From an uncultured Syntrophaceae bacterium (GTDB taxonomy: Bacteria; Desulfobacterota; Syntrophia; Syntrophales; UBA2185): a stretch of 36,879 nucleotides of DNA. Positions 5,938-36,418 of the stretch are shown one piece after another; the stretch's first letter is position 1; every line of letters begins with the position of its first letter. Where the stretch lies: the NCBI GenBank assembly GCA_903893135.1, contig CAITLA010000042.1:1-36879 (forward strand), read 5' to 3'. The position numbers and the translations under genes are program-made. The notes below the pieces were generated by a model that saw only the letters and a list, made by a program, of their open reading frames with translations, had not been told where the DNA came from and did not search any database.

Positions 5938-6013
5938 TCCCCGGTAGCTCAGTCGGTAGAGCAGATGGCTGTTAACCATCGGGTCCGTGGTTCGAGTCCG
6001 CGCCGGGGAGCCA
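5938..6013 (+). tRNA. tRNA-Asn (anticodon GTT)
   Basis: A 76-nt cloverleaf with encoded CCA. The acceptor stem TCCCCGG (5938-5944) pairs with CCGGGGA (6003-6009), with discriminator G6010 and CCA at 6011-6013. The D-arm contains AGCTCAGTCGGTAGAGC. The anticodon stem is GATGG/CCATC with loop CTGTTAA, giving anticodon GTT at 5971-5973, which reads Asn AAC/AAU. The T-arm contains GGTTCGAGTCC. All invariant positions look intact. Confidence 0.98.
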
Positions 6014-13411: not shown

Positions 13412-15349
13412 ATGGGCAAGACGATCACCGAAAAAATAATTGAAGCACATATTGTTTCAGGTAGATTCGTTCCCGGAACTGAGATCGGAATTAGAATCGA
13501 TCAGACCCTGACGCAGGACGCCACAGGGACCATGGCCTATCTTGAGTTTGAATCGATGCACGTCCCGAGAGTCAGAACGGAATTGTCCATAAGTTATATT
13601 GATCATAATACCATTCAGAGCGGGTTTGAAAATTCCGATGACCACAGGTACCTGCAAACTGTAGCGCAGAAGTATGGCATATACCTTTCACGGGCGGGTA
13701 ACGGTATCTGTCACCAGGTGCACTTTGAGAGGTTTGGAAAACCAGGGAAAACGCTCCTCGGTTCCGACAGCCACACGCCCACGGGTGGCGCCCTCGGCAT
13801 GCTCGCCATCGGCGCCGGGGGTCTGGATGTGGCTCTGGCCATGGCGGGGGAACCCTTCTGCTTTACCTGTCCCAGGATAATCAAGATCAATCTTACCGGT
13901 ACACTGCCTCCATGGACATCCGCCAAGGATATTATCCTGAAGGTTCTTGAGATATTTACCACGAAGGGAAATGTCGGGTTCATCTTTGAATATGGGGGAG
14001 AAGGTACGGCGACTCTTTCGGCGCCCGAGAGGGCTACCATAGCCAATATGGGCGCGGAATGCGGCGTAACCACATCCATCTTCCCGAGCGACGAGATGGC
14101 GCGGATTTTCTTGAAGGCCCAGAAGCGGCATGATGACTGGCAGGAAATAAGAGCCGATCTGGATGCAGAATATGACCGAATCGTTGATATTGACCTCTCT
14201 CATATCGTTCCACTCACAGCAAAACCGCACAGTCCAGATAATATAAGCCCCGTGAGAGACGTGGGAGGAATTCGAGTGGACCAGGTCTGTATCGGAAGTT
14301 GCACCAATTCATCATACAAAGACCTCGCAACAGTCGCCAGGATTTTAAAAGGCAATGTGGTTCACCCGGAGGTCAGTTTTATCATTGCACCTGGCTCACG
14401 ACAGGTACTGGAAAATCTTGCCAGAGAAGGTTATCTTACGGACCTCATTATGGCAGGGGCGAGACTCATGGAAAGCGCATGCGGATTCTGCATCGGCAAC
14501 AGCCAAAGTCCCCAGACAAGAGGGGTGTCCCTCCGAACATCAAACCGAAATTACCTTGGCCGGTCAGGCACACTTGATGCACAAGTCTATCTTGTAAGTG
14601 CCGAAACCGCGGCAGCCTCAGCCATAACGGGGAGAATTACGGATCCCCGTGACCTCGGTGTGGTCTATCCTCAAGTGCCCATGCCCGACCGTTTTTATAT
14701 TGATGACAGTATGATCATCAAGCCCGAGTCGACTGAGAACTCTTCTGCCATAGAAATTTTCCGCGGTCCGAATATAGGCGTTCCGCCTGCGAATGACCCG
14801 TTTCCGGAGATGATTAAGGGTGAAGTCACCATCAAGGTGGGAGACAAAATCACGACTGATCATATTGTTCCTGCCGGCACCAGGATGAAATATCGATCAA
14901 ACATACCCAAATACTCGGAGTGTTTTTTTGAACCGCTCGATGGGCAATGTTCCGAACGTGCTACAAAAATCCGGGACAAGGGAAAACACAATATAATCAT
15001 CGCCGGACTTTCATACGGGCAGGGTTCGTCGAGAGAACACGCCGCCATATGCACGATGTTCCTGGGTGTGAAGGCCGTCATCGCTAAGTCTTTCGAAAGA
15101 ATTCACGCGGCAAATCTGATAAACTTTGGAATACTTCCCGTTACATTTAAGGACGACAGGGACTACGAGCGTATCAACCAGGGGGACAGCCTTGAGATTA
15201 CCGACGCCAGAAAGACCATCGAGGGAAGCGAAAAGATGCTCGTAAGGAATGTCTCTAACAGTTTAACATTTGAGGTTAATTACAATCTGTCAGAACGGCA
15301 GAAAAAAATTCTTCTTGCCGGCGGTGCACTGAATCTAAGGCACATCTGA
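13412..15349 (+). CDS. Aconitate hydratase, short AcnA-like type
   Basis: 645 residues, shorter than E. coli AcnA (about 890) and matching the bacterial and archaeal short aconitase family. It isomerises citrate to isocitrate with a labile [4Fe-4S] cluster. Visible signatures are QDATGTMAYLEFE, LLGSDSHTPTGGALGM, and the cluster Cys in GSCTNSS (one) and ACGFCIG (two). The swivel domain has KITTDHIVPAG and YGQGSSREHAA (substrate-binding Ser/Arg). It runs directly into isocitrate dehydrogenase, forming the oxidative branch toward 2-oxoglutarate. The ATG at 13412 agrees with the family N-terminus. Confidence 0.96.
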   Translation: MGKTITEKIIEAHIVSGRFVPGTEIGIRIDQTLTQDATGTMAYLEFESMHVPRVRTELSISYIDHNTIQSGFENSDDHRYLQTVAQKYGIYLSRAGNGICHQVHFERFGKPGKTLLGSDSHTPTGGALGMLAIGAGGLDVALAMAGEPFCFTCPRIIKINLTGTLPPWTSAKDIILKVLEIFTTKGNVGFIFEYGGEGTATLSAPERATIANMGAECGVTTSIFPSDEMARIFLKAQKRHDDWQEIRADLDAEYDRIVDIDLSHIVPLTAKPHSPDNISPVRDVGGIRVDQVCIGSCTNSSYKDLATVARILKGNVVHPEVSFIIAPGSRQVLENLAREGYLTDLIMAGARLMESACGFCIGNSQSPQTRGVSLRTSNRNYLGRSGTLDAQVYLVSAETAAASAITGRITDPRDLGVVYPQVPMPDRFYIDDSMIIKPESTENSSAIEIFRGPNIGVPPANDPFPEMIKGEVTIKVGDKITTDHIVPAGTRMKYRSNIPKYSECFFEPLDGQCSERATKIRDKGKHNIIIAGLSYGQGSSREHAAICTMFLGVKAVIAKSFERIHAANLINFGILPVTFKDDRDYERINQGDSLEITDARKTIEGSEKMLVRNVSNSLTFEVNYNLSERQKKILLAGGALNLRHI

Positions 15350-15368
15350 TAGACAGGTCATCTCCTTT

Positions 15369-16637
15369 GTGATAGAAAAAAGTATGAAATCGTCAGGCAA
15401 AAAATCTGTTCCTTTGATGGATAGGATAAAAGTCAAGTCTACCATCGTCGAGATGGATGGTGACGAGATGGCGAGAATCATGTGGAAGCTGGTTAAGGAC
15501 AAGCTGCTCCTTCCCTATCTTGCCATGGACATCGAATACTACGATCTTCACATCAAGAATCGTGATGCAACGGACGACCGGGTTACAATTGCTGCGGCAA
15601 GAGCTATTATGAAACACCGCGTAGGGGTCAAGTGCGCGACGATCACACCGAATGAAGAAAGGGTCAAAGAATACAATCTCAAGAAACTGTGGAAGAGCCC
15701 CAATGCAACAATCAGGGAGATGCTTGACGGAACTGTCTTTAGAAAGCCAATCCTCGTGAAAAATATCCGGCCATCTGTATCCACTTGGAAGAAACCCATC
15801 ACCATAGGCAGACACGCGTATGGCGACGTTTACAGCAGTACGGAGATGCGGATAACCTCTCCCGGAAAGGCAGAGCTCCTTTTTACACCCATAGGAGGCG
15901 GCTCACCCATCAGGCAGACCATTAAGGAATTTAGAGGACCGGGGATTATCCAGGGCACGCACAATACCGACGAGTCCATAGAAAGTTTCGCAAAAGTCTG
16001 CTTCATGTATGCCCTCGATCAAAAGATTGATCTCTGGTTCAGCGGCAAGGATACCATCTCCCAGATATACGATGGCCGCTTCAAGGATATATTTGAGAAA
16101 GAGTATGCAAGAAACTGGAAGGAAAAATTCAATCGCGCAGGTATCTCATATTTTTATACACTAATCGATGATGCTGCGGCCCGCATCATGAAGTCTGAAG
16201 GCGGCCTGCTGTGGGCTCTCAAGAACTACGATGGAGATGTCATGTCCGATATGATAGCATCAGCGAACGGCAGTCTGGCCATGATGACCTCCGTCCTGGT
16301 TTCTCCTCATGGGTATATCGAGTACGAAGCGGCTCACGGCACGGTACAGAAACACTATTACAAATATCTCCGAGGCGAAGAAACATCTACAAACCCCATG
16401 GCAATAATCTTTGCCTGGTCGGGATACCTCCGCAAGCGCGCCGAGATCGACGTGACTCCCGAAGTAGGCTCGTTTGCGGACAAACTTGAAAAGGCGGCCC
16501 TTTCTGCTGTGGCATCCGGTATCATGACAGGCGATCTCCTCTCGGTTGCAAAGCAGAGCCTTAAGAACAGGAAGGTCAATACGGAAGCATTCATCGATGC
16601 AATTGCCAAAAATCTCAGAAAGAAACTATTTGGTTAA
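15369..16637 (+). CDS. icd: Isocitrate dehydrogenase, eukaryotic-type (NADP-dependent family)
   Basis: 422 residues. The protein follows the mitochondrial/cytosolic IDH1-IDH2 pattern rather than the E. coli type: VEMDGDEMARIMWKLVKD, YDLHIKNRDATDD, VGVKCATITPNEERV, WKSPNATIRE, IGRHAYGDVY, KSEGGLLWALKNYDGDV and AAHGTVQKHYYKYLRGEET. It oxidatively decarboxylates isocitrate to 2-oxoglutarate. The cofactor loop reads VQKHYY where human IDH1 has VTRHYR, so the phosphate-binding Arg is Lys; NADP is still likely. The listed start is a GTG at 15369; ATGs at 15384 and 15417 are possible and the last would fit the family best. It is 19 bases after aconitase and overlaps rlmN. Confidence 0.95.
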   Translation: MIEKSMKSSGKKSVPLMDRIKVKSTIVEMDGDEMARIMWKLVKDKLLLPYLAMDIEYYDLHIKNRDATDDRVTIAAARAIMKHRVGVKCATITPNEERVKEYNLKKLWKSPNATIREMLDGTVFRKPILVKNIRPSVSTWKKPITIGRHAYGDVYSSTEMRITSPGKAELLFTPIGGGSPIRQTIKEFRGPGIIQGTHNTDESIESFAKVCFMYALDQKIDLWFSGKDTISQIYDGRFKDIFEKEYARNWKEKFNRAGISYFYTLIDDAAARIMKSEGGLLWALKNYDGDVMSDMIASANGSLAMMTSVLVSPHGYIEYEAAHGTVQKHYYKYLRGEETSTNPMAIIFAWSGYLRKRAEIDVTPEVGSFADKLEKAALSAVASGIMTGDLLSVAKQSLKNRKVNTEAFIDAIAKNLRKKLFG

Positions 16638-17667: not shown

Positions 17668-17771
17668 TGGAGAAACGCGGACTACCATGAGATGAGAAAC
17701 GATTGTGCATCTCTTATCAGCACACACTTACTTACCGCTTACAGATTGAGGATCAAAAGGAGGAATACTGT

Positions 17772-19100
17772 ATGCCTGGAGTCTTCAAAGATTATGCAAA
17801 GAACAAATTAAAAAAACCGGCGCCTCTGAAAGGAATCAGGGTAATAGAGGTCTGTACACTGCTCTTCGGACCGGCAGGCCCATCGTTTCTGGCCGAAATG
17901 GGAGCTGAAGTGATCAAGATCGAATTACCCCCTGCGGGAGATGTAACGCGTTCCCTGAATCCCTTCGGATGGTTTTTCAAGGAACAAGGCCCGATGTTCA
18001 TGCACATCAACCCATCCAAATATTACATGGCCCTGGACCTGCACAAGGATATGGCCCAGAATATCTTCAAAGAGCTCTGTGCCAAAGCGGATATTGTCGA
18101 GTTCAACCTACGGCCCGCGGTAACGAACCGCTGGAACATCGGTTATGAAGATATCAAGAAAGTAAACCCCGGCATAATTTACATTGAGAAAAACGGATTC
18201 GGCCAGTGGGGCCGCTACGCCGAGGAGGACCGCCCTTCTAACGACGGCGCAGCGCAGGCGCTCTCGGGCTATGCCTGGATGTCAAGTTTTTCCAAGAGAC
18301 CCCCGCTCAAGCAGAGCATCTGGATCTGCGACGTATACGGAGCGATGATGGGTGAAGTTGCCGTGCTGGCGGCCCTTCATCACCGGAAAAGAACCGGCAA
18401 GGGGCAGTTTATAGAAATGTCACAGAGTGAAAATATCATGCGTGCCATGGGGTGGATCTGGCCCTACCAGCAGATGACAGGCAAGGGGGCGGAACCATCG
18501 GGGAACAGGGATCAGTGCATCTGCCCTGCCGATACGTTCCTTTGTAAAGACGGCAATTTTGCCGCCCTTGCGGCGCCGGCCCCGGATGAATTTAAGGGTC
18601 TATGCGCGGCCATGGCTAAGCCGGAACTGGCTGACGATGCCCGATTCAAGGATCATACGACCAGGCTCAAAGATGAAAATGCCCTGGCAATCCTCAAGAT
18701 CATCGCCGGCTGGGCAGTAGGGAAGACAGCCGACCAGATCGAGAACCTGGGCAAGAAGCACGGTTTCGCTGCTACCCGGCTTCACAACGCCAAAGATGAA
18801 TTCGAAGATCCCCACCGCAGGGATCGAGGCTTCATCAAAGAGATTGACGACCCCATGTACGGAAAGTATGTCGATCACGAAATCCCCATAATGATGTCCA
18901 AAACGCCGCCCAAACATCGCTGGACCGTAAGGCCTGTGGGTTTTGACAATGACTTTATCATGACCAAGATCCTGGGCAGAAACCAGACCCAACTGGACGA
19001 ACTCTATACGCACGGTGTCCTGGGAAGATGGAAGGACCAGCAAGGCCGCAGGCCGCCCCCAGATTGGGACGGGCAATCCGGCGCTATATTAAGGAGGTGA
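17772..19100 (+). CDS. Class III (CaiB/BaiF-type) CoA-transferase, subunit 1
   Basis: 442 residues from ATG 17772 with AGGAGG 8 bases upstream. The family moves CoA between carboxylic acids through a covalent aspartyl-CoA intermediate. Signatures are LKGIRVIEVCTLLFGP, FLAEMGAEVIKIE, DLHKDMAQNIF, GFGQWGRYAEEDRP, and the catalytic Asp in SNDGAAQALSG (about Asp158). It is followed six bases later by a diverged paralogue (19107). Adjacent class III pairs are known to form two-subunit CoA-transferases, for example benzylsuccinate CoA-transferase BbsEF. The acid substrate cannot be read from sequence. There is no neighbour in this operon besides the paralogue. Confidence 0.92.
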   Translation: MPGVFKDYAKNKLKKPAPLKGIRVIEVCTLLFGPAGPSFLAEMGAEVIKIELPPAGDVTRSLNPFGWFFKEQGPMFMHINPSKYYMALDLHKDMAQNIFKELCAKADIVEFNLRPAVTNRWNIGYEDIKKVNPGIIYIEKNGFGQWGRYAEEDRPSNDGAAQALSGYAWMSSFSKRPPLKQSIWICDVYGAMMGEVAVLAALHHRKRTGKGQFIEMSQSENIMRAMGWIWPYQQMTGKGAEPSGNRDQCICPADTFLCKDGNFAALAAPAPDEFKGLCAAMAKPELADDARFKDHTTRLKDENALAILKIIAGWAVGKTADQIENLGKKHGFAATRLHNAKDEFEDPHRRDRGFIKEIDDPMYGKYVDHEIPIMMSKTPPKHRWTVRPVGFDNDFIMTKILGRNQTQLDELYTHGVLGRWKDQQGRRPPPDWDGQSGAILRR

Positions 19101-19106
19101 TGAAAC

Positions 19107-20456
19107 ATGGCAGACTACAAGAGAGCAAAATGGTCGGCATGGGCAGACAATATCAGGTCACTTGATGATCCGGCACACAACTTTGAAAAACCCGAGGCCC
19201 TGGATGACCTTGTCGTAATCGATTTGAGTTCGCGGAGCATGGCAGGATGTTTCTGTTCTTCCATGCTGTCAGAACTCGGCGCAGAGACTATTCGCATCGA
19301 ACCGCCGGGGGGCGACCTCGTCAGGACCTACTCCCCCAACGGGATAATGGTAAAGGATACAGGACTCGCGTATCTCCAGGAGGGGCGAAACAAGTACCAT
19401 GTAACGCTGAACATGGAGACGGAAGAAGGGAGAGACATACTGAAATCTCTTGCCGCCCAGGCGGACGTACTTATCGAGACCTATCCGGCAGGAACTATGG
19501 ACAAGTGGGGAATCGGCTACGAGGCGCTCTCAGAGATCAATCCCCGCCTCATCTTTGCATCGATTTCCACCTTCGGCCAGTTTGGTCCGGAGAGCAAAAG
19601 AAAGCAGTATGATTATGACAACGTTTCCCAGGCACGCTCCAGCATACAATATGCGACAGGAGAGGTACTGCCTGAAGGAAAGACTGTAAACGATGTGCCA
19701 CACGCCGTTCCCACAAAGGCCGGGCCATGGATAGCGTGGGCCGTTTCCGGCACTTTCGCAGCCATGGGCATTCTGGCAGCCCTTTATCATAGGGATATGA
19801 CAGGCGAGGGCCAGGCAATTGACGTATCCACACCAGAAGCTTACGGCCGCCTGAATGATTATCAGCTCATGTGGTATGGCGAGGCCGGCGTGATCAATGA
19901 GCGCTTCGGCAGCCTTGATACAGCTTTATGGCTGTATGGCTTTTATCCGACCAAGGACGGCGGCGTCTTCCTCGGAGGTCTCCGCCTGGAGATGTGGAAA
20001 GCCTTCGTGGATATTATTGGAAAATACGACGAGTGGAAGGCTGAAGAATGGACGACGCTCGCGCCTTTCATGAAAAAAGACTGGCAGCTCAAGTATCAGT
20101 CCATGATCGATCCGCTGACGGCACAGTACACAAGTGAAGAACTCACAAAAAAATCTGTTGAATATGCGAAAAGCGGCAGGCTGGCGCCCATCACTCCCGT
20201 CGTAGCGGAGATCGTGTCGCCATGGAAAGCTATGCAAGATGAAAACTGGCTGGACCGGGGCATGTTCACACCGGTTCAGGATCCTGTCTACGGCTCTGTT
20301 TTTTGTGCCCAGGCACAGTGGAAGGCAACGGAAACGCCGCCGAGAACAAAATGGGCCTGTCGACCAATAGGTTACGACAATGGATTCATATACCTCAAGT
20401 ATTTTGGATATGGCCCGGTGAAGCTCAAGGAACTGGGAGGCAAGGGTATTATCTAA
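19107..20456 (+). CDS. Class III (CaiB/BaiF-type) CoA-transferase, subunit 2
   Basis: 449 residues from ATG 19107 with AAGGAGGTGATG just upstream. It is homologous to the preceding gene: LDDLVVIDLSSRSMAG, LSELGAETIRIEPPGGDL, IETYPAGTMDKWGIG, STFGQFGPE. The candidate catalytic Asp is Asp171 in DYDNVSQARSS, in the same DxxxQA pattern as Asp158 of the partner. Glycine content after the Asp is lower than in the partner (SQARSS against AQALSG), so the two subunits may not be equally active. It is tightly coupled to the first gene and followed by gene debris. Confidence 0.91.
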   Translation: MADYKRAKWSAWADNIRSLDDPAHNFEKPEALDDLVVIDLSSRSMAGCFCSSMLSELGAETIRIEPPGGDLVRTYSPNGIMVKDTGLAYLQEGRNKYHVTLNMETEEGRDILKSLAAQADVLIETYPAGTMDKWGIGYEALSEINPRLIFASISTFGQFGPESKRKQYDYDNVSQARSSIQYATGEVLPEGKTVNDVPHAVPTKAGPWIAWAVSGTFAAMGILAALYHRDMTGEGQAIDVSTPEAYGRLNDYQLMWYGEAGVINERFGSLDTALWLYGFYPTKDGGVFLGGLRLEMWKAFVDIIGKYDEWKAEEWTTLAPFMKKDWQLKYQSMIDPLTAQYTSEELTKKSVEYAKSGRLAPITPVVAEIVSPWKAMQDENWLDRGMFTPVQDPVYGSVFCAQAQWKATETPPRTKWACRPIGYDNGFIYLKYFGYGPVKLKELGGKGII

Positions 20457-26369: not shown

Positions 26370-27656
26370 ATGGATAAATTCGATGTGATAATTGTGGGAG
26401 CGGGACTGGCTGGCCTTGGGGCGGCGTATACGCTCGCAGGGAACGGTCTTGAGGTGCTGGTTCTGGAGCGGGGGGACAATCCCGGCGCAAAGAATATGAC
26501 TGGCGGCCGTCTTTACTTGAACCCCGTTCGCAATTTGTTTCCCGGCCTATTCGACAATGCCCCTGTCGAGCGCTTCATAACCCATGAAGGAATATCAATC
26601 ATGGCAAAGGACCGCTCGGTGACACTCAACTATTCCGAAAATGAACTCACGGACGAACCCCATCAGAGCTACAGTATCCTCAGATCGAAGTTCGACAGAT
26701 GGCTCTCGGAACGGGTGGAAGATAAGGGGGTCGCGATCTTACCTAAGATCAGGGTCGATGACGTCATCAAGGATAGCGGGCAAATTATAGGTGTCATTGC
26801 AGGCGCTGACGAACTACGGGCCGACGTTGTGCTTGCCTGTGACGGTGTATTATCGCTCGTCTCCGAAAAAGCCGGCCTGCGATCGCCCGCTGCGCCCGGC
26901 AGCTTCGCCCTCGGCATCAAGGAAGTAATCGCTCTGAATTCCGGGGTCATCAATGAACGTTTCAATCTGGAAGGTGACGAAGGAGCGGCGCGCCTCTTTG
27001 TGGGAGAAGTAACCCGTGGGAAATTCGGAGGTGGCTTTCTCTACACAAACAAGGAGAGTGTCAGTCTGGGCATCGTTGTCGGCATCGAGGATGCTGCAGA
27101 AGACAGGCTTCCTATCGAAGTACCCGCCCTCCTGGACGCTTTCAAGGAGCGGCCGGAGATCGCCCCCCTAATCAGGGGAGGAAGCACAGTAGAGTATTCG
27201 GCGCATATTATACCGGAGGGCGGCTTCAAGGCAATTGGCAATCTGTGCGGAAACGGCATCCTGGTCGCGGGTGATGCTGCCGGGCTCGCAATGAACATCG
27301 GTTTCACGGTGAGGGGCATGGAATTTGCGCTGGCTTCAGGCCACTTCGCCGCCCAGGCCATCATGAAGGCGAAGGAAGCCGGGAATTTTGATGCTCCGAC
27401 CCTGAGCATTTACAGGAGGCTTCTCGAAGACAGTTTCGTTCTTAAGGATTTGAGAAACTTCCAGGAAACACCTGCTGTGATCGGAAATCCGCGGGTTTTC
27501 AACCATTACCCGGAGCTGATCGGAGCAATCATGAGAGATGTTTACTCCGTTCCCGCAGGTCCCAAAGATAGGCTGTACCCGACTATTAAAAAACATCTGA
27601 CTCTCCCCGAATTGTGGGCCCTGTTCATAGATATGAAAGGGGTAATGAAGATATGA
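26370..27656 (+). CDS. fixC: FAD-dependent ETF:quinone oxidoreductase-like protein FixC
   Basis: 428 residues, the same length as E. coli FixC. The N-terminal FAD site is VIIVGAGLAGLGAAY (residues 6-20). GAKNMTGGRLY, SYSILRSKFDRWL, GIKEVI, GGGFLYTNKESVSLG, EYSAHIIPEGG, GILVAGDAAGLAMNIGFT and a final MKGVMKI follow the FixC pattern throughout. It takes electrons from FixAB (ETF) and, with the ferredoxin FixX, passes them to a quinone or other acceptor. Its stop overlaps fixX (ATGA), indicating translational coupling. The start at 26370 has GGGGAA just upstream. Confidence 0.96.
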   Translation: MDKFDVIIVGAGLAGLGAAYTLAGNGLEVLVLERGDNPGAKNMTGGRLYLNPVRNLFPGLFDNAPVERFITHEGISIMAKDRSVTLNYSENELTDEPHQSYSILRSKFDRWLSERVEDKGVAILPKIRVDDVIKDSGQIIGVIAGADELRADVVLACDGVLSLVSEKAGLRSPAAPGSFALGIKEVIALNSGVINERFNLEGDEGAARLFVGEVTRGKFGGGFLYTNKESVSLGIVVGIEDAAEDRLPIEVPALLDAFKERPEIAPLIRGGSTVEYSAHIIPEGGFKAIGNLCGNGILVAGDAAGLAMNIGFTVRGMEFALASGHFAAQAIMKAKEAGNFDAPTLSIYRRLLEDSFVLKDLRNFQETPAVIGNPRVFNHYPELIGAIMRDVYSVPAGPKDRLYPTIKKHLTLPELWALFIDMKGVMKI

Positions 27657-27937
27657 GCGAAAGGCTGGACTTGAAGGCTAAACTGGGGCTCGATGTGTTC
27701 AAGCCTGCCCTAGAACCCCACATCAAGATCAAACAGGGGATGGAAAAAGACCTGCGCCTGAAACCGGCTATCCGTGCTTGTCCGGCGGGCCTCTACAGCG
27801 AGAATGACAACGGCGAGGTCGTCCTTACTATAGACGGGTGTCTCGAGTGCGGCACCTGCCGGCTTGTCTGCGGCACAGAGATTCTCGATTGGAATTATCC
27901 TCCGGGGGGAACCGGTGTGCAGTACCGTTTCGGTTAG
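27653..27937 (+). CDS. fixX: Ferredoxin-like protein FixX
   Basis: 94 residues (E. coli FixX has 95). The ATG at 27653 overlaps the fixC stop. The conserved RACPAGLYSENDNGEV segment and a Cys cluster CLECGTCRLVCG fit one [4Fe-4S] cluster, and the ending YPPGGTGVQYRFG matches FixX. It accepts electrons from FixC. The frame is open 39 bases further upstream inside fixC, but that extension is not family-like. It is followed after 157 bases by the acyl-CoA dehydrogenase. Confidence 0.95.
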   Translation: MSERLDLKAKLGLDVFKPALEPHIKIKQGMEKDLRLKPAIRACPAGLYSENDNGEVVLTIDGCLECGTCRLVCGTEILDWNYPPGGTGVQYRFG

Positions 27938-28094: not shown

Positions 28095-29234
28095 ATGGAT
28101 TTTAAATTTACTGAGGAACAAGAACTGATTCGTAAAAATGTGAGAGAATTTTGTGTGAAGAACGTGGAACCCATCGCCGCGGAAATCGATGAGAACAGCC
28201 GCCACCCCGCCGAGTTGTTTGAAAAACTCTCTGATGGGGGCTGGATGGGCATACCCATTCCGCAGGAATACGGGGGAGCCGGGGCGGACTTTTTAACCAA
28301 TATCATTGTAGTGGAAGAACTTTCCCGGTCATGCTCCTCCACGGGGTTTACCGTGTCGACTCATGCCAGCATCATGTGCATGATGATACTTCTATTTGGT
28401 ACGGAAGAGCAGAAGAAGATTTACCTGACCCCCATGGCAGAAGGCAAGCGTTTGGGGGCTTTCTGCCTGACCGAGCCCGGTGCAGGCACCGACGTCATGG
28501 CCGTCACTACCGCCGCAGTTTTAGACGGCAATGAATATGTCATCAATGGAACCAAGACCTTCACGTCCAACGGCCCCATTGCGGGGACATTCATTGTCTT
28601 CGCATGGACGGACAAATCTGCCGGTCGCAAAGGCATGAGCACATTCATAGTCCCCAGAGAAACCCCAGGTCTCAGAGTGGGTGAGCATTTCAAGAAGATG
28701 GGTCTCCGGTCTTCACAGACATCAGAGATCATCTTCAAAGACTGCCGCGTGCCGAAGAATAATCTTCTTGGGAAGGAAGGGGCCGGTCTCCAGATGGCAA
28801 TGGCCGGCTTCGATGGCGGCCGGGTGGGAATTGCCGCGCAATGCATCGGTATTCTCCAGGCAGCACTGGACGAATCTATCCGGTATTCCAAGGAGAGGAT
28901 TCAATTCGGTTCCCCCATAGCCCGTAACCAGGCCATCGCCTGGATGATAGCGGACATGGCCACGGACCTCTCCGCTGCCCGCTTCCTCACCTACCACGCA
29001 GCCTGGCTCAAAGACCAAAAGCTGCCATTCAGTAAGGAAGCCGCCATGGCTAAACTCTATGCATCGGAGGCAGCCATGCGTCATACCGTGAAGGCAGTTC
29101 AGATACATGGCGGATACGGCTACTGCAAAGGCGCCAAGGTGGAGCGTTTGATGCGTGACGCCAAGATTACGGAAATATATGAGGGAACGTCAGAGGCACA
29201 GCGGATGGTCATCTCGGGGATCGTGCTCCGCTGA
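28095..29234 (+). CDS. Short-chain acyl-CoA dehydrogenase
   Basis: 379 residues from ATG 28095, with GAGGGG nine bases upstream; an ATG at 28086 would sit directly on the ribosome binding site. It resembles butyryl-CoA-type dehydrogenases: DFKFTEEQELIRKNVREF, IPIPQEYGGAGADFL, AFCLTEPGAGTDVMAV, YVINGTKTFTSNG, GLRSSQTSEIIFKDC, IQFGSPIARNQAIAWM, IHGGYGYCKGAKVERLMRDA. The catalytic base is Glu363 in EIYEGTSEAQR, the position used by short- and medium-chain enzymes. FAD-bound electrons go to ETF (fixAB) encoded directly downstream. The substrate chain is not determined by sequence. The spacing from fixX suggests its own ribosome binding region but the same transcript. Confidence 0.95.
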   Translation: MDFKFTEEQELIRKNVREFCVKNVEPIAAEIDENSRHPAELFEKLSDGGWMGIPIPQEYGGAGADFLTNIIVVEELSRSCSSTGFTVSTHASIMCMMILLFGTEEQKKIYLTPMAEGKRLGAFCLTEPGAGTDVMAVTTAAVLDGNEYVINGTKTFTSNGPIAGTFIVFAWTDKSAGRKGMSTFIVPRETPGLRVGEHFKKMGLRSSQTSEIIFKDCRVPKNNLLGKEGAGLQMAMAGFDGGRVGIAAQCIGILQAALDESIRYSKERIQFGSPIARNQAIAWMIADMATDLSAARFLTYHAAWLKDQKLPFSKEAAMAKLYASEAAMRHTVKAVQIHGGYGYCKGAKVERLMRDAKITEIYEGTSEAQRMVISGIVLR

Positions 29235-29280
29235 GCACCTGCTCAACTAAGCCCAGCTTTTTAGGATGAGGAGCAAGTTT

Positions 29281-30048
29281 ATGCCTTCCATTATTGCCTG
29301 TTTTAAATGGGTCATCGATGAGGCCTACATCCGGCGCGGCCCGTCCGGCGATTTGGATTTCTCCTCCGTGGATTACAAGATTGGCGAGTATGACCGCAAT
29401 GCCATCGAGGAAGCCGCCCGGCTGAAAGAAGACCTTGGAGGCAAGGCCATCGCCGTCACTGTCGGTATGCCCGAGGCTACGAAAGGCGTCAAAGATGCCC
29501 TCTCCCGTGGGACCGACGAGGCCTATTTTATAGCCGACAGTTCTTTCGGCAATCTGGATTCTTCCCAGACTGCCCTCATCCTGGCTGAGGTCATCCGCAC
29601 CAGGATAGAACAATATGACATTATCCTCTGCGGCGAGGGTTCCAGTGACCTCTATGCCCAGCAGGTCGGCCCCCGCCTGGCAGAACAACTGGGGATACCC
29701 TGCATTTCCTTCGTACAGAAGCTCTCCATTACAAAGCACCAACTCGTCGCGGAGCGTCGCGTCGAAGAAGGCATTGAAGTAATCACGGCGCCCCTGCCTG
29801 CCCTGGTAACAGTTCTACCCGATATCAATGTCCCCAGGATCCCCGGGGTCAAAGACACCCTGATGGCGGGAAAGAAGCCCACCGTGAAGATTACAAGAGA
29901 TGAACTTCCGCCCTTCGGTGGGCCCCTGCTACGAACGATCAGCCTCACAGCTTCAAGGATAGAACGGAGCTGCGAGAGATTCGGGACAGACACCGCAGAG
30001 ATAGCCCGATTTGTGGGATCATTGCGCAAGAAAGGCGTCATCGGTTAA
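29281..30048 (+). CDS. fixA: Electron transfer flavoprotein beta subunit, FixA type
   Basis: 255 residues from ATG 29281, with GAGGAG seven bases upstream; the first ATG at 29266 lies within that ribosome binding site. The protein follows E. coli FixA/YdiQ: SGDLDFSSVDYKIGEYDRNA, KDALSRGTDEAYF, DIILCGEGSSDLYAQQVG, PLPALVTVLPDINVPRIP and KKPTVKITRDEL. It binds AMP or FAD and takes electrons from the dehydrogenase. It is quite different from the EtfB at 36721. It is adjacent to fixB. Confidence 0.94.
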   Translation: MPSIIACFKWVIDEAYIRRGPSGDLDFSSVDYKIGEYDRNAIEEAARLKEDLGGKAIAVTVGMPEATKGVKDALSRGTDEAYFIADSSFGNLDSSQTALILAEVIRTRIEQYDIILCGEGSSDLYAQQVGPRLAEQLGIPCISFVQKLSITKHQLVAERRVEEGIEVITAPLPALVTVLPDINVPRIPGVKDTLMAGKKPTVKITRDELPPFGGPLLRTISLTASRIERSCERFGTDTAEIARFVGSLRKKGVIG

Positions 30049-30058
30049 AGGAGATCAT

Positions 30059-31006
30059 ATGTCAGGAGTGTGGATAATTTCGGAAAACCGCAGGCAATCC
30101 ATGGAGATCTTAAACATCGGCCAACAGTTAGCCGATAAGATGGGAACGCGTGTATCCGCGCTTCTTTACCAAAACCGCGAACATGTGGAGGACTGCATCA
30201 ATCATGGAGCGGATGAGGTCATGCTCCTTCCCCCACTGAGCAGTGAACAGCCCCTGGAAAGCCACATCCCTGTTATCATCGAAGAAGCAAGAAAAGGAGA
30301 ACCCGATCTGATCCTCCTCCCCGCCACGCCGAGAGGAAAAAATATGGCAGCCCTGATAGCGGCACGACTGAATGTAGGACTCGTGAGCAGTTGTACGAAA
30401 ATAGATTTTAACGAGGAGAGCAAAACGTTGGTTATGGAACGCTTGTCACACGGAGGAGCGGCGGTGCAGAAGGTGATTTGCACGGCCAGCCCTGCCATGG
30501 CTACCATCCCACCGAGAACTTATGAGACGGCTATGCCGGAGACAGGACGACAAGGGAATGTCCGGGACCTCCCGCCACCACCAGCTTCCGCAATTAAAGT
30601 AATCGAGAGGAAACTGAAGGAAAGGGAGACGAAAGACATCTCCGAAGCGCGGGTCGTCGTCTGTGTAGGAAGAGGCATAGAGAAGGAGGAAGACCTGGCC
30701 ATCGCCCGTCAATTCGCCGAAGTCGTGGGCGGTGCAATAGGTTGCACGAGGCCGATTGCCGAAGAGTTTCACTGGCTGCCTGAAGAGCTCTGCATCGGTC
30801 TTTCCGGCGTACAGATAAAACCGGATCTCTACTTTGGCATCGGGGTTTCCGGCCAGATTCAGCATGTGACCGGCATACGTAATGCCAAGGTGATCGCCGC
30901 CGTGAATAAGGATGATAATGCCCCTATCTTCAAGGCAGCCGACTTCGGCATCATCGGCGATCTCTATGACGTGATGCCGAAACTCATCTCCGAATTAAAG
31001 AAATGA
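30059..31006 (+). CDS. fixB: Electron transfer flavoprotein alpha subunit, FixB type
   Basis: 315 residues from ATG 30059, with AAAGGAG five bases upstream. The N-terminal ETF domain is followed by the conserved C-terminal FAD domain: VVVCVGRGIEKEEDLAIA, GGAIGCTRPIAEEFHWLP, LCIGLSGVQIKPDLYFGIG, SGQIQHVTGI, KVIAAVNKDDNAPIFKAAD, and GIIGDLYDVMPKLI. The Arg/Ser/Gln residues contacting FAD are in place (TRPIAEE, GVSGQIQH). It forms ETF with fixA. It ends the fix operon; an 801-base gap follows. Confidence 0.95.
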   Translation: MSGVWIISENRRQSMEILNIGQQLADKMGTRVSALLYQNREHVEDCINHGADEVMLLPPLSSEQPLESHIPVIIEEARKGEPDLILLPATPRGKNMAALIAARLNVGLVSSCTKIDFNEESKTLVMERLSHGGAAVQKVICTASPAMATIPPRTYETAMPETGRQGNVRDLPPPPASAIKVIERKLKERETKDISEARVVVCVGRGIEKEEDLAIARQFAEVVGGAIGCTRPIAEEFHWLPEELCIGLSGVQIKPDLYFGIGVSGQIQHVTGIRNAKVIAAVNKDDNAPIFKAADFGIIGDLYDVMPKLISELKK

Positions 31007-31721: not shown

Positions 31722-31738
31722 TTGGCATATAAATTGCG
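31722..31738 (+). promoter_or_regulatory. Sigma-54 (RpoN) promoter candidate
   Basis: TTGGCATATAAATTGCG: GG at 31724-31725 and GC at 31736-31737, exactly 10 bases apart, with TTGGCA and TTGC matching the -24/-12 consensus apart from the seventh base. The transcription start would be near 31748, giving a leader of about 60 bases to the GTG at 31808. This promoter class needs an ATP-driven activator, so the operon is probably induced by a signal or substrate. Confidence 0.7.
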
Positions 31739-31807: not shown

Positions 31808-33385
31808 GTGGCAAAATTTATGACTGCAGAAGAAGCGATTAAGCTGATCAAGAATGGAGACACTGTGGCGACTTCCGGATTTGTCGGAATGGGTCATCCG
31901 GAAGAACTTTCGAAGGCTGTTGAAAAGAGCTTTTTGGAAACAGGTCAACCGAACAACTTGACGCTTACATTTGGCGCAAGCCAGAATGACGGAAAATCAA
32001 ACTGGGGACTGAATCGCTGGGCAAAAGAAGGTCTGGTGAGAAAGGTCGTATCTGGCCATTGGGGATTACAGCCTGATTTAATCAAGATGGCTGTTGCCAA
32101 TAAGATAGAGGCATACAATATCCCCCAGGGCGTGATTCTCCACGTATTTCGGGCGACCGCCGGCAAGAAACCGGGCATCATTACACATGTCGGCCTGAGG
32201 ACATTTGTGGATCCTCGAGAGACGGGAGGAAAACTAAACAGCATCAGCCACGAAGAGTACGTCCGCTTAATGGAAATCGATGGCAAGGAATATCTGTTCT
32301 ATAAGGCCATCCCCATCAATGTTGCCATCGTCCGCGGGACGACGGCAGATGAAAATGGCAATGTGTCCATTGAAAGAGAGGCCATATCCCTGGAATTTGC
32401 CCTATTGGCGCTTGCTGCCAAGGGGTCAGGCGGTAAGGTCATCGTGCAGGTGGAAAGGGTGACAAAAGCGGGTACGCTTCATCCGATGATGGTCAAGATA
32501 CCGAAAATATGGGTGGATGCAATCGTCGTCGCAAAGCCTGAGAACCACTGGCAGGTTCCCATGGCCGAGCAATATAATCCGAGCCTTTGCGGTGAAACCA
32601 GAGTTCCGCTGAGTCGCATACCGCCCATGAAGATGAGCGAAAGAAAAGTAATTTGCCGAAGGTGCGCCATGGAGCTTATCCCGAACGCAGTCGTAAACAT
32701 GGGTATCGGCATGCCGGAAAGCGTCGGGGCGGTTGCAGCCGAAGAGGACTTGATCGAATTGATGACATTCACGGTCGAGCCGGGAGCGATTGGAGGCATG
32801 CCCGGTGCCAAGCTCTATTTCGGGACTGCAGTCAATCCGGAAGCCTTGGTTGACCATCCCCTCATGTTTGATTTCTATGATGGCGGCGGCCTCGACCTGG
32901 CGGTCCTAGGGATGGCGGAAATGGATCAGTTCGGAAATGTGAACGTCAGTAAGTTCGGTCCCAGAATAGCCGGAGCGGGGGGATTTATTAATATCAGCCA
33001 GAGCGCAAAGAAGGTGGTTTTCTGTGGAACACTCACGGCAAGCGGTCTTGAGTTAGGGATCGGCGATGGAAAGCTCAAGGTAGTAAAAGAAGGCAAGGTG
33101 AAGAAATTAGTCAAGAAGGTGGAGCATATCACGTTCAGCGGTGAATACGGAAAGACAAGCGGTCAGAGTATCCTTTACGTTACGGAACGGGCCGTTTTTA
33201 AACTTACGCCTGAGGGCGTCATGCTGACAGAAATTGCTCCCGGCCTGGATATGGAGAAGGATGTATTATCTCAGATGGAATACAGGCCGCTCATCGCCCC
33301 TAAGGTTCAATTGATGGATGCACGCCTTTTCAAGGACGGGCCGATGGGCATCAAACCAGAGATATTGAAGAAGGCTAGTCTCTAA
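31808..33385 (+). CDS. Acetate/propionate-type CoA-transferase, class I, fused subunits
   Basis: 525 residues from GTG 31808, with GGAGG seven bases upstream. Both halves of a class I CoA-transferase are fused, as in propionate CoA-transferase and YdiF. The alpha-like half begins FMTAEEAIKLIKNGDTVATS and GFVGMGHPEELSKAV, and has VGLRTFVDPRETGGKLN. The beta-like half has the catalytic Glu in FTVEPGAIGGMP (about Glu324), AVVNMGIGMPE, DLAVLGMAEMDQFGNVNV and GAGGFINISQSAKKVVF. It swaps CoA from acetyl-CoA or another donor onto a carboxylic acid. It is the first gene after the sigma-54-like promoter and precedes the dehydratase-like gene by 45 bases, so it probably activates that enzyme's acid substrate. 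Confidence 0.94.
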   Translation: MAKFMTAEEAIKLIKNGDTVATSGFVGMGHPEELSKAVEKSFLETGQPNNLTLTFGASQNDGKSNWGLNRWAKEGLVRKVVSGHWGLQPDLIKMAVANKIEAYNIPQGVILHVFRATAGKKPGIITHVGLRTFVDPRETGGKLNSISHEEYVRLMEIDGKEYLFYKAIPINVAIVRGTTADENGNVSIEREAISLEFALLALAAKGSGGKVIVQVERVTKAGTLHPMMVKIPKIWVDAIVVAKPENHWQVPMAEQYNPSLCGETRVPLSRIPPMKMSERKVICRRCAMELIPNAVVNMGIGMPESVGAVAAEEDLIELMTFTVEPGAIGGMPGAKLYFGTAVNPEALVDHPLMFDFYDGGGLDLAVLGMAEMDQFGNVNVSKFGPRIAGAGGFINISQSAKKVVFCGTLTASGLELGIGDGKLKVVKEGKVKKLVKKVEHITFSGEYGKTSGQSILYVTERAVFKLTPEGVMLTEIAPGLDMEKDVLSQMEYRPLIAPKVQLMDARLFKDGPMGIKPEILKKASL

Positions 33386-33430: not shown

Positions 33431-34900
33431 ATGGCATTAAAGACAAGAGAGGAATACAAGAAATCATTAAAGGCAATGAGGCCGAATATCTACAAATTTG
33501 GAGAGTTGATCGAGGACGTCACAACTCATCCGGCGACAAAGCGCGTGGTCGAAAGCCATGCAAGGGCAATTGACGCATCACATGACCCGAAATTAGCGGA
33601 GGATTTCACTACCACCTCCACTTTCATAAGCGGTGAGAAGATCCACAGATGGAATTCCATGATGGAAACCCTTGAAGATATCATGGGCAATTCCAAGATG
33701 AAGAGATGGATGTACCGCCTGACGGGAAGCTGCAGCGGGGCTGTGTGCGTAGGCTGGAACGCCCAGAACGTTATGTGGAATGTCACGGCGCAAATGGACA
33801 AGGAATTGGGAACGAAATATCAGGAGCGTCTCAAAAAATGGATTATCAATACCCAGAAAAATGGCCTTCTCGTAGCGGGCGCTCTTACAGACGCCAAAGG
33901 GGACCGCAGCCTGAGACCATCACAGCAGGCGAATCCGGACAGCAATCTGCATATTACAGAAGTCCGCGAAGGTGGTATCGTAATCAGTGGAATGAAGGCG
34001 ATGATTTGCGGTGTGGCCGCCTCTAACGAAATATTTCTTTTGCCGGGAGGCGCCTACAGGGAAGAGGATCAGGATTATGCCGTTAGCTGCGTTGTGCCGC
34101 GGGATATAACGGGTCTTACAATCGTGGAGGCCCGGAGGCCAAGCGACACCAGAGAACTGGAAGGCGGATTCGACATTCCGGACTCAGGCATCACCCAGTC
34201 TTTCCTGTTTTTCAAAGACTGCTTTGTCCCTAATGACAGGGTTTTCATGTGCAAAGAATCCAAATATACAGGCAATATAATTGGATATTTTACAGCTAAC
34301 TACCGTGCGTGCATCGGCGCATGCGTCGCCGGTCAGGGAGACGTGATGATCGGCGCTGCGGCGCTTATGGCGAGGACGAACGGATTGGCGGCAAGCACAT
34401 TTGCGGGCAAGATGGTAGAGATGGCTGTTAATAATGAAACTACATACTGCATGGGAATTGGCGCGATGGCCCTGGGGAAGAAAGGTCCCGGTGGTATGTG
34501 GGTTTCAGATCCCTTGACCGCTCATGCCAATAAAGTCCATGTGGCAACTCTTCCTTATGAAACAAAGCGCATCTGCCAGGACATCGGCGGCGGTATCGTT
34601 GAAACAGGATGTTTCCCGTCTTCGAAGGACTTTAATGACCCAAAATTAGGAGCCATGGTTCAATCGGCTCTGAAAGCCTCCGGTAAGTTCAGCGCTGAAT
34701 CAAGGGCGCGCACAGCAAGGCTTTCTGAGTGGCTGACGCTTGGCGCGGGCGTTCCCGGATGTATGCACGGCGGCGGTTCCCCTGACGGAGCAAAGCTGGT
34801 TGTCAGATCTCTGACCCCCGTTGACCAGTTTGCCGAATACGCGAGAAAAATTGCCGGTATAACTGAAGAAATACCGGAGCCGGAAAAAAAGAAGAAATAA
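33431..34900 (+). CDS. 4-hydroxybutyryl-CoA dehydratase (AbfD)/HpaB-family flavoprotein with altered cluster ligands
   Basis: 489 residues, with AAGGAG before the ATG. The HpaB/AbfD acyl-CoA dehydrogenase-like fold is recognisable: YKFGELIEDVTTHP, GALTDAKGDRSLRPS, VPNDRVFMC, GQGDVMIGAAALMA, DIGGGIVETGCFPS and MHGGGSPDGAKLV. AbfD of Clostridium aminobutyricum binds [4Fe-4S] through Cys99, Cys103, His292 and Cys299. Here the Cys pair is Cys101 and Cys106 (one residue wider), the His position is Tyr291 (NYRACIGAC), Cys298 is kept and Cys294 is an extra Cys. AbfD Tyr296 corresponds to Ile295. It therefore probably does not catalyse the standard reaction, or binds its cluster differently. It might dehydrate, isomerise or oxidise another acyl-CoA. 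It follows a CoA-transferase and precedes a transporter. Confidence 0.8.
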   Translation: MALKTREEYKKSLKAMRPNIYKFGELIEDVTTHPATKRVVESHARAIDASHDPKLAEDFTTTSTFISGEKIHRWNSMMETLEDIMGNSKMKRWMYRLTGSCSGAVCVGWNAQNVMWNVTAQMDKELGTKYQERLKKWIINTQKNGLLVAGALTDAKGDRSLRPSQQANPDSNLHITEVREGGIVISGMKAMICGVAASNEIFLLPGGAYREEDQDYAVSCVVPRDITGLTIVEARRPSDTRELEGGFDIPDSGITQSFLFFKDCFVPNDRVFMCKESKYTGNIIGYFTANYRACIGACVAGQGDVMIGAAALMARTNGLAASTFAGKMVEMAVNNETTYCMGIGAMALGKKGPGGMWVSDPLTAHANKVHVATLPYETKRICQDIGGGIVETGCFPSSKDFNDPKLGAMVQSALKASGKFSAESRARTARLSEWLTLGAGVPGCMHGGGSPDGAKLVVRSLTPVDQFAEYARKIAGITEEIPEPEKKKK

Positions 34901-35086: not shown

Positions 35087-36418
35087 ATGAGTGCAAAGGT
35101 AGCCGCAGGAGTTGATCCTGTAAAGGCCAAGAAGATGCTTACGTATCGGTGGATTACTTATGGAATGTTCTTGTTAACGTATATTTTTGTATATTTCGAC
35201 CGTGTTTCGCCGGCGGTTGTTGCGCCGGAACTGATGAAGGAATTCGGTCTCACAGCAACGACCCTTGGTATTTTATCATCGATGTACTTTTATCCTTATG
35301 CAGCAATGCAGTTCCCGTCGGGAGTCCTATCCGATAAAATCGGCCCCAGGCTTTCGGTTAGTATGTTTTTCGTCATAGCGGCAATCGGTACTGCATTGTT
35401 TGGTTTGGCCCAGACGTTCGGCTGGTGTATCTTCGGCCGCTTTTTAATGGGTGTCGGCGTCGCGGTTGTTTGGATGCCTTGTATGAAGATCCTGTACAAC
35501 TGGTTCCGGCCGAATGAATTAGCGACACTTACAGGTGTGATGCTCACCTTGGGCAATGTCGGCGCGATACTCGCGTCCGCACCGCTTGCGTTTCTGGTGG
35601 GTATCGTCGGATGGCGGAATTCATTCTTATGGCTGGGCGCTTTTATGGTCCTCATATCTATCGTTGACTACCTGATCATCCGAAATAAACCGGCCGATAT
35701 GGGTTACCCAACAGTTTCGGAGATCGACGGCATCGATTACTACCCGGCACAGACTGCCGCACAGAAGACGACATTTAAAGAGAATTTTGTTAAACTGCTA
35801 AAAATGAAAAACTACTGGTTGATATCCCTTTACGCCTTTGTGATCTACGGTACGGTCATGGGATTTCAGGGACTCTGGTTCATTCCCTATGCGCAGCAGA
35901 TATACGGTATGCCCAAGCAGCAGGCGGCCAACATGCTCATGTTCTGGCCAATTGGGATGGCGATAGGATGCTTTGCGGCCGGTTGGTGTTCCGACCGTGT
36001 TCTTAAATCACGCAGAAACACATCTTTCTACGGCATGCTAATCTACGTTGCGACCTGGATACCGATAGCTTTCTTTACCGGCTCAATTCCCGTTGCGTGG
36101 TTCTATCCCCTGCTATTTGTCATGGGCTTCTTCTGCGGCGCATATGTGCCCAATTATGCGCATATAGCTGACGGTCAGCCGACCAGCTTCATGGCGACAT
36201 CCAACGGGATGCTGAATATATGGTACTTTATAGGTGGGGCTTTATATCAGTTATTGATGGGTGTTGTGCTTGACTTCTATGGAAAGGTTAACGGTAAATT
36301 TCCGGTGGAAGCCTATCAGGCCACCTTTATGTTCTGTGCGGCATCGCTCGTAGTAGGCGCCGTGGCGATGTACTTCACAACGGATTCTAAACCGATCATA
36401 ACCAAGAAGGCGGCGTAA
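35087..36418 (+). CDS. Major facilitator superfamily transporter (organic anion type)
   Basis: 443 residues with 12 predicted membrane segments and a large central loop (about residues 195-250). The ATG has AAGGAGGAG eight bases upstream. The MFS motif A is GVLSDKIGPRLSVSM (about residues 80-94); its counterpart in the second half is GWCSDRVLKSRRNTS. FLLTYIFVYFDRVSPAVVAPELMKEF and NWFRPNELATLTGVMLTLGN resemble the anion:cation symporter and hexuronate/phthalate-type branch, so a carboxylate is a good guess for the substrate. It lies behind the CoA-transferase and dehydratase-like genes and could import the acid they use, or export the product. Confidence 0.9.
   Translation: MSAKVAAGVDPVKAKKMLTYRWITYGMFLLTYIFVYFDRVSPAVVAPELMKEFGLTATTLGILSSMYFYPYAAMQFPSGVLSDKIGPRLSVSMFFVIAAIGTALFGLAQTFGWCIFGRFLMGVGVAVVWMPCMKILYNWFRPNELATLTGVMLTLGNVGAILASAPLAFLVGIVGWRNSFLWLGAFMVLISIVDYLIIRNKPADMGYPTVSEIDGIDYYPAQTAAQKTTFKENFVKLLKMKNYWLISLYAFVIYGTVMGFQGLWFIPYAQQIYGMPKQQAANMLMFWPIGMAIGCFAAGWCSDRVLKSRRNTSFYGMLIYVATWIPIAFFTGSIPVAWFYPLLFVMGFFCGAYVPNYAHIADGQPTSFMATSNGMLNIWYFIGGALYQLLMGVVLDFYGKVNGKFPVEAYQATFMFCAASLVVGAVAMYFTTDSKPIITKKAA

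Follow-up and report, generated by a model that had tools for sequence, protein, structure and literature searches.

The window, by which we mean the whole 36,879-nt stretch of contig CAITLA010000042.1, encodes a 489-aa protein that belongs to a real and conserved variant of a known enzyme kind, the flavoproteins related to AbfD. This variant is without description in the literature that we searched, which consisted of open-licence papers and contained no paper on the subfamily. Its members, here called Tyr-type, keep the three cluster cysteines of AbfD but have a CxxxxC spacing and a tyrosine at the position of the histidine ligand. We see about an even chance that the protein is an acyl-CoA enzyme with the AbfD fold that depends on FAD and an iron-sulfur cluster and catalyzes something other than the dehydration of 4-hydroxybutyryl-CoA. 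The textbook example of radical chemistry by a flavin together with an iron-sulfur cluster is AbfD, for which the proposed mechanism depends on His292, Tyr296, Glu257 and Glu455. In a subfamily with the three cysteines but without the rest, nature itself has tested what each part of the mechanism is needed for.

The gene (33431..34900, forward strand) starts with ATG, and residue numbers such as C101 and Y291 refer to its 489-aa product. Its assignment to the AbfD/HpaB fold draws on Pfam, the match to AbfD, the alignment and the predicted model. A Pfam profile search found both HpaB_N and HpaB far over their cut-offs. The cut-offs of the NCBIfam HpaB equivalogs were not reached (101.8 versus 480.2 bits and 73 versus 885.2 bits). 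Among solved structures, the closest are two 4-hydroxybutyryl-CoA dehydratases, from Clostridium aminobutyricum (AbfD, 1u8v) and Nitrosopumilus maritimus (6vjr). A phmmer match to AbfD covers residues 3-477 (E 6.6e-86), with 35-38% identity over the whole length. For the AlphaFold2 model, predicted with 64 relatives (pLDDT 92.4, pTM 0.90), Foldseek ranked 1u8v at the top (TM 0.93/0.93, rmsd 1.6), followed by 6vjr (TM 0.93/0.91) and then HpaB-type flavin monooxygenases (2yyk, 2yyi and 6eb0; TM about 0.8), which share the superfamily fold and the two Pfam domains. While the Tyr-type clade has three invariant cysteines, the aligned Thermus HpaB monooxygenase has no cluster cysteines, and the Pfam label HpaB alone hides the Tyr-type CxxxxC proteins. 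In the predicted model the AbfD fold is retained along its whole length, as an earlier note on this DNA had claimed. The TDxKGDR and HGxGSP motifs are shared with AbfD, and the MHGGGSP named in the earlier note lies at residues 445-451.

A MAFFT alignment of AbfD and family members matched C101 to Cys99, C298 to Cys299, Y291 to His292 and I295 to Tyr296, all as the earlier note had read them by eye. C106 meets Cys103 only through a one-residue insertion, and a gap-free match between the two was absent. The stretch from Y291 to C298, on the other hand, aligns with H292-C299 of AbfD without a gap and lies within one long helix of the predicted model (residues 277-316), so that the register of the ligand loop is firm. 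The codons of residues 100-108 (SCSGAVCVG), with C101, C106 and the insert at column 103, occupy positions 33728..33754 of the forward strand. Those of residues 290-300 (NYRACIGACVA, gap-free against AbfD 291-301) occupy 34298..34330 on the same strand and include Y291 for His292, I295 for Tyr296, C298 for Cys299 and V299 for Lys300.

These features are shared by the entire clade. Residue conservation was counted in 66 dereplicated relatives of the Tyr/CxxxxC type, where C101, C106, C298, Y291 and the CxxxxC spacing were each present in 66/66 and the CxxxC of AbfD was absent. The inserted residue is Gly in 64 of the 66, and its column is a gap in all 29 AbfD-type rows. More positions have changed than the earlier note listed. 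Besides Tyr296, which became Ile in 64/66, Glu257 is replaced by Gln (62/66), Thr190 by Cys or Ala (66/66; Cys in the window protein) and Lys300 by Val (66/66), while the Glu455 column is Gly in every relative and the Glu455 loop is gone. Like AbfD, 6vjr has the three cysteines and keeps the CxxxC, His, Tyr and Glu residues. Reportedly, His292, the three cysteines, Glu257, Glu455, Tyr296 and Thr190 are all required for the dehydratase activity of AbfD. Since nearly all of the required residues are gone, the window protein should not dehydrate 4-hydroxybutyryl-CoA by the published AbfD route, and judging from the sequence, the proton and electron route of AbfD would be unable to operate as published. 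Very probably the protein catalyzes a different step, one in the anaerobic degradation of small acids.

Several candidates for a replacement ligand did not hold up. The extra Cys294 that the earlier note pointed out is present in the ligand loop, but relatives have Ala, Pro, Gly, Thr or Tyr at this position. Because it is not conserved, Cys294 is an unlikely ligand and gives no support to the idea of a substitute. A substitute histidine was also rejected, as there was no other His at the ligand position and no newly conserved, clade-specific His among the 66 relatives. A selenocysteine or in-frame stop at a key site was likewise rejected; the stop in L066 lies only close to the C-terminal end. 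The earlier account of the sequence is confirmed, with the one correction that Cys294 lacks conservation, and its interpretation is partly supported.

Relatives at 52-94% identity were found by a scan of genome contigs and a genome search. Tyr-type relatives come from at least ten phyla, their record titles naming 11; most are metagenome-assembled genomes, so that single assignments may be wrong. They include Bacillota (Pelotomaculum, Moorella and Desulfosporosinus), Thermodesulfobacteriota (Syntrophaceae and Desulfopila), Myxococcota, Zixiibacteriota, Thermoplasmatota, Chloroflexota, Pseudomonadota, Bacteroidota, Synergistota, Aquificota and, as a partial gene, Calditrichota. Among named relatives, Syntrophaceae genomes come closest to the window, at 94%. 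A strong match was present in 13 of 297 sampled genomes of the same phylum, host genome included, and the gene is therefore patchy in the phylum. No relative of at least 60% identity occurred in the plasmid collection. The Tyr/CxxxxC type is a distinct and widespread subfamily of mainly anaerobic lineages and is not peculiar to one genome.

The spacing and the fourth ligand position are coupled across the family. Among 155 dereplicated members, CxxxxC is accompanied by Tyr in 66 and by Gln in 17, but in none by His, while CxxxC is accompanied by His in 61/62 and by Ala in the remaining one. Rows that show both spacings are CxxxC/His rows with an extra cysteine, plus one CxxxxC/Tyr row. A careful tree, from which the motif columns were excluded, recovered the Tyr and AbfD clades as separate groups, each with support 100/100, and a Gln clade with 100/99. 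The window protein thereby falls outside the AbfD clade; the tree does not fix the branching order among the clades. An AU test did not reject Tyr plus Gln as one clade (p-AU 0.24), although a FastTree tree placed the Tyr clade together with a group of the CxxxC/His type (support 1.0). Considering the AU result, the loss of His and the change in spacing as two proven independent events were not upheld. Spacing and His appear to have changed together in one or two events, and because the events are so few, the coupling is not statistically independent evidence. The invariant cysteines, the coupled changes and the clade-wide trait argue well for the different cluster geometry that the earlier note had proposed.

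The Gln-type paralogs resemble the Tyr type in their one-residue Gly insertion, their three cysteines and the absence of the His ligand. They differ in that Gln takes the place of the His and Ser/Thr that of Tyr296, that they form a separate clade and that they lack Cys394. We observed them as L004, which comes from the host genome of the window, and as L030, L050-L053, L154, L156, L160, L170, L171, L176, L178-L180, L184 and L188. The host genome has five family members besides the window gene, of which L002 and L003 are canonical CxxxC/His proteins. EtfAB was not seen around these two, so within the host genome its linkage does not hold for the family as a whole. L191, L202, L203 and L204 have lost most or all of the cluster cysteines but keep His at 292, and their sequences suggest that this branch, close to the base of the tree, probably has no cluster. 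Two further variants were observed. L055, L183, L186, L193 and L200 have HFCSMC (CxxC), with Val in place of the His, and L005, L048, L035 and L072 (from 7830) are CxxxC/His proteins in which one more residue separates the His from the final Cys (HRMNCGGAC) and Glu455 is missing.

In the window, the gene sits between a CoA-transferase and a transporter, as previously described; all genes given here are on the forward strand. Upstream is a 525-aa family I CoA-transferase (31808..33385; Pfam CoA_trans) of the FadX/YdiF-like kind, which scores 425 bits with the FadX model, under the cut-off of 750, and is nearest to E. coli YdiF (2ahu, 443 bits). Downstream is a 443-aa MFS transporter (35087..36418; Pfam MFS_1), for which no NCBIfam model exceeded its cut-off. 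Further upstream are genes for a FixC-like flavoprotein of the ETF:quinone oxidoreductase type (26370..27656; NCBIfam FixC 417 bits, cut-off 610), a FixX-like small ferredoxin (27653..27934), a 379-aa short-chain-type acyl-CoA dehydrogenase (28095..29234; Acyl-CoA_dh Pfams), a FixA-like EtfB (29266..30048; Pfam ETF, best NCBIfam models FixA-type and under cut-off) and a FixB-like EtfA (30062..31006; Pfams ETF and ETF_alpha, NCBIfam FixB-type models under cut-off). The ferredoxin was recognized by eye from its translation, CPAGLY...CLECGTCRLVC...WNYPPGGTGVQYRFG, and had no Pfam match at 1e-6; a FixX-like gene also lies between FixC and the acyl-CoA dehydrogenase in L110. The best PDB match of the acyl-CoA dehydrogenase is chain C of 5ol2, which we take to be the butyryl-CoA dehydrogenase of a Bcd-EtfAB complex. 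Its best-scoring model is acryloyl-CoA reductase, yet this score is under the cut-off, and an acrylate-type pathway is for this reason only an idea. A sigma-54 (-24/-12) promoter-like site, TGGCATATAAATTGC, lies at 31723..31737 on the forward strand, 85 bp before the CoA-transferase start. It is the only exact sigma-54 match in the window, where 0.05 are expected, and falls inside the 800-bp gap between EtfA and the CoA-transferase, which is followed by the gene under study and the MFS transporter.

Similar neighbors recur in relatives. Among 75 loci, EtfB was found near the gene in 27, an acyl-CoA dehydrogenase in 26, EtfA in 25 and a PAS/CBS sigma-54 activator in 15. An acid-activating gene was present in roughly 22 of the 75 (PaaK in 8, a FadX-type CoA-transferase in 7, an AMP ligase in 5 and an AbfT-type CoA-transferase in 3, one locus being counted with two genes). 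None of these neighbors occurred in 29/75 loci, for which contig ends account only in part. Relatives have a sigma-54 site in the same place as the window. Sites at most 2.4 kb upstream were found in 12/78 loci, four of which are the window and its 94% relatives. These 12 sites in 168,307 bp of upstream sequence compare with 9 in the other 1.59 million strand-bases, an enrichment of about 12.6-fold. Together, the neighbors suggest inducible catabolism of a short-chain acid. The repeated linkage to acid-activating genes and to acyl-CoA dehydrogenase/EtfAB also supports the dedicated acyl-CoA substrate that the earlier note had proposed. These recurrent links to CoA-activating enzymes, to acyl-CoA dehydrogenase/EtfAB and to sigma-54 control point to a catabolic pathway, and a search for its substrate is now possible. 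Activating enzymes and transporters vary among loci, so one single substrate is not proven, and reading the substrate from the neighbors was rejected as BCCT, RACo, PaaK and MFS proteins disagree on one compound.

Other neighbors were seen at individual loci. A BCCT transporter comes after the gene in Desulfopila aestuarii (L078:7532-9190); the model closest to it is that of the carnitine/gamma-butyrobetaine antiporter, with 450 bits against a cut-off of 541. A conserved membrane protein of about 460 aa, probably a permease, adjoins the gene at L111:4487-5875 and likewise in L063, L076, L097, L125 and L130, and matched neither Pfam nor NCBIfam. In two genomes, RACo-type (corrinoid reductive activator) proteins lie directly 3' of the gene (L101:7474-9258 and L104:7488-9284). 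Directly 5' of a 60% identical homolog is a 600-aa frame without a Pfam match (L036:8026-9825, reverse strand).

We propose that a small carboxylic acid would be imported by the MFS transporter and converted to its CoA thioester by the CoA-transferase. The enzyme would bind the thioester beside FAD and an iron-sulfur cluster coordinated by Cys101, Cys106 and Cys298. With His replaced by Tyr or Gln, the fourth cluster iron is probably open or weakly capped; in the window protein it may be open to the substrate as in aconitase, or weakly capped by Tyr291. The reaction would be an elimination or isomerization of a short-chain acyl-CoA, and the short-chain acyl-CoA dehydrogenase linked to the gene, with EtfAB and FixCX, would also act on its substrate or product. 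It is possible, although we hold this tentatively, that these proteins form a class of acyl-CoA enzymes that is new and uses radical or Lewis-acid chemistry, in which a flavin works with a three-Cys [4Fe-4S] cluster whose open or Tyr/Gln-capped fourth iron binds the substrate, catalyzing an undescribed reaction in an unrecognized short-chain-acid pathway of anaerobes from many phyla.

There is a small but appreciable chance that the protein is instead a divergent 4-hydroxybutyryl-CoA dehydratase or vinylacetyl-CoA isomerase that reaches AbfD activity via compensating residues. Its whole-length identity and TM of 0.93 to AbfD are consistent with this, as are the CoA-transferases of the acetyl-CoA hydrolase/transferase family (AbfT-like) that adjoin the gene in L098, L125 and L130. 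However, H292, Y296, E257, T190 and E455 are replaced in essentially the entire clade, and the host genome already has CxxxC/His paralogs of the AbfD clade; isomerase activity by itself is harder to exclude. We consider it unlikely that the enzyme releases a neutral group such as trimethylamine or dimethyl sulfide from an onium acyl-CoA, for example gamma-butyrobetainyl-CoA or DMSP-CoA. A good neutral leaving group would make the acid-base residues for water loss unneeded, and BbuA, a flavoenzyme of a different family, provides a precedent by eliminating trimethylamine from gamma-butyrobetainyl-CoA (PMC8364193). The BCCT transporter of Desulfopila fits such a substrate, and a 3-(methylthio)propionyl-CoA ligase model ranks second for the AMP ligases in Desulfopila and L080. 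Yet BCCT occurs at one locus only, the window and other loci have MFS, ABC or unclassified permeases, and the PaaK-type ligases elsewhere are a poor fit.

A cluster-free flavoprotein, either acyl-CoA dehydrogenase-like or non-catalytic and with the cysteines in another role, is equally unlikely. The earlier note had raised a cluster-free reaction. In favor of it, the His ligand and the electron-transfer residues of AbfD are gone, and members lacking the Cys set exist (L191, L202, L203 and L204). Those four have lost most or all of the cysteines, whereas the Tyr type has all three in 66/66 over at least ten phyla. That the three cysteines are retained together speaks for a cluster. About as unlikely is an all-cysteine cluster with Cys394 (codon at 34610..34612, forward strand) as ligand of the fourth iron. 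In its favor, this clade-specific cysteine is invariant in 66/66 and situated in a two-residue insertion (GC) that is a gap in AbfD-type and Gln-type rows. Against it, homology with acyl-CoA dehydrogenases would place the loop beside the FAD adenosine of the neighboring subunit and away from the cluster.

Elsewhere, the window contains a tRNA gene (5938-6010; Rfam 65 bits), a gene for a 645-aa aconitase-family protein followed by one of the isocitrate/isopropylmalate dehydrogenase family (13412-16637), and two adjacent class III CoA-transferase genes (17703-19100 and 19107-20456).
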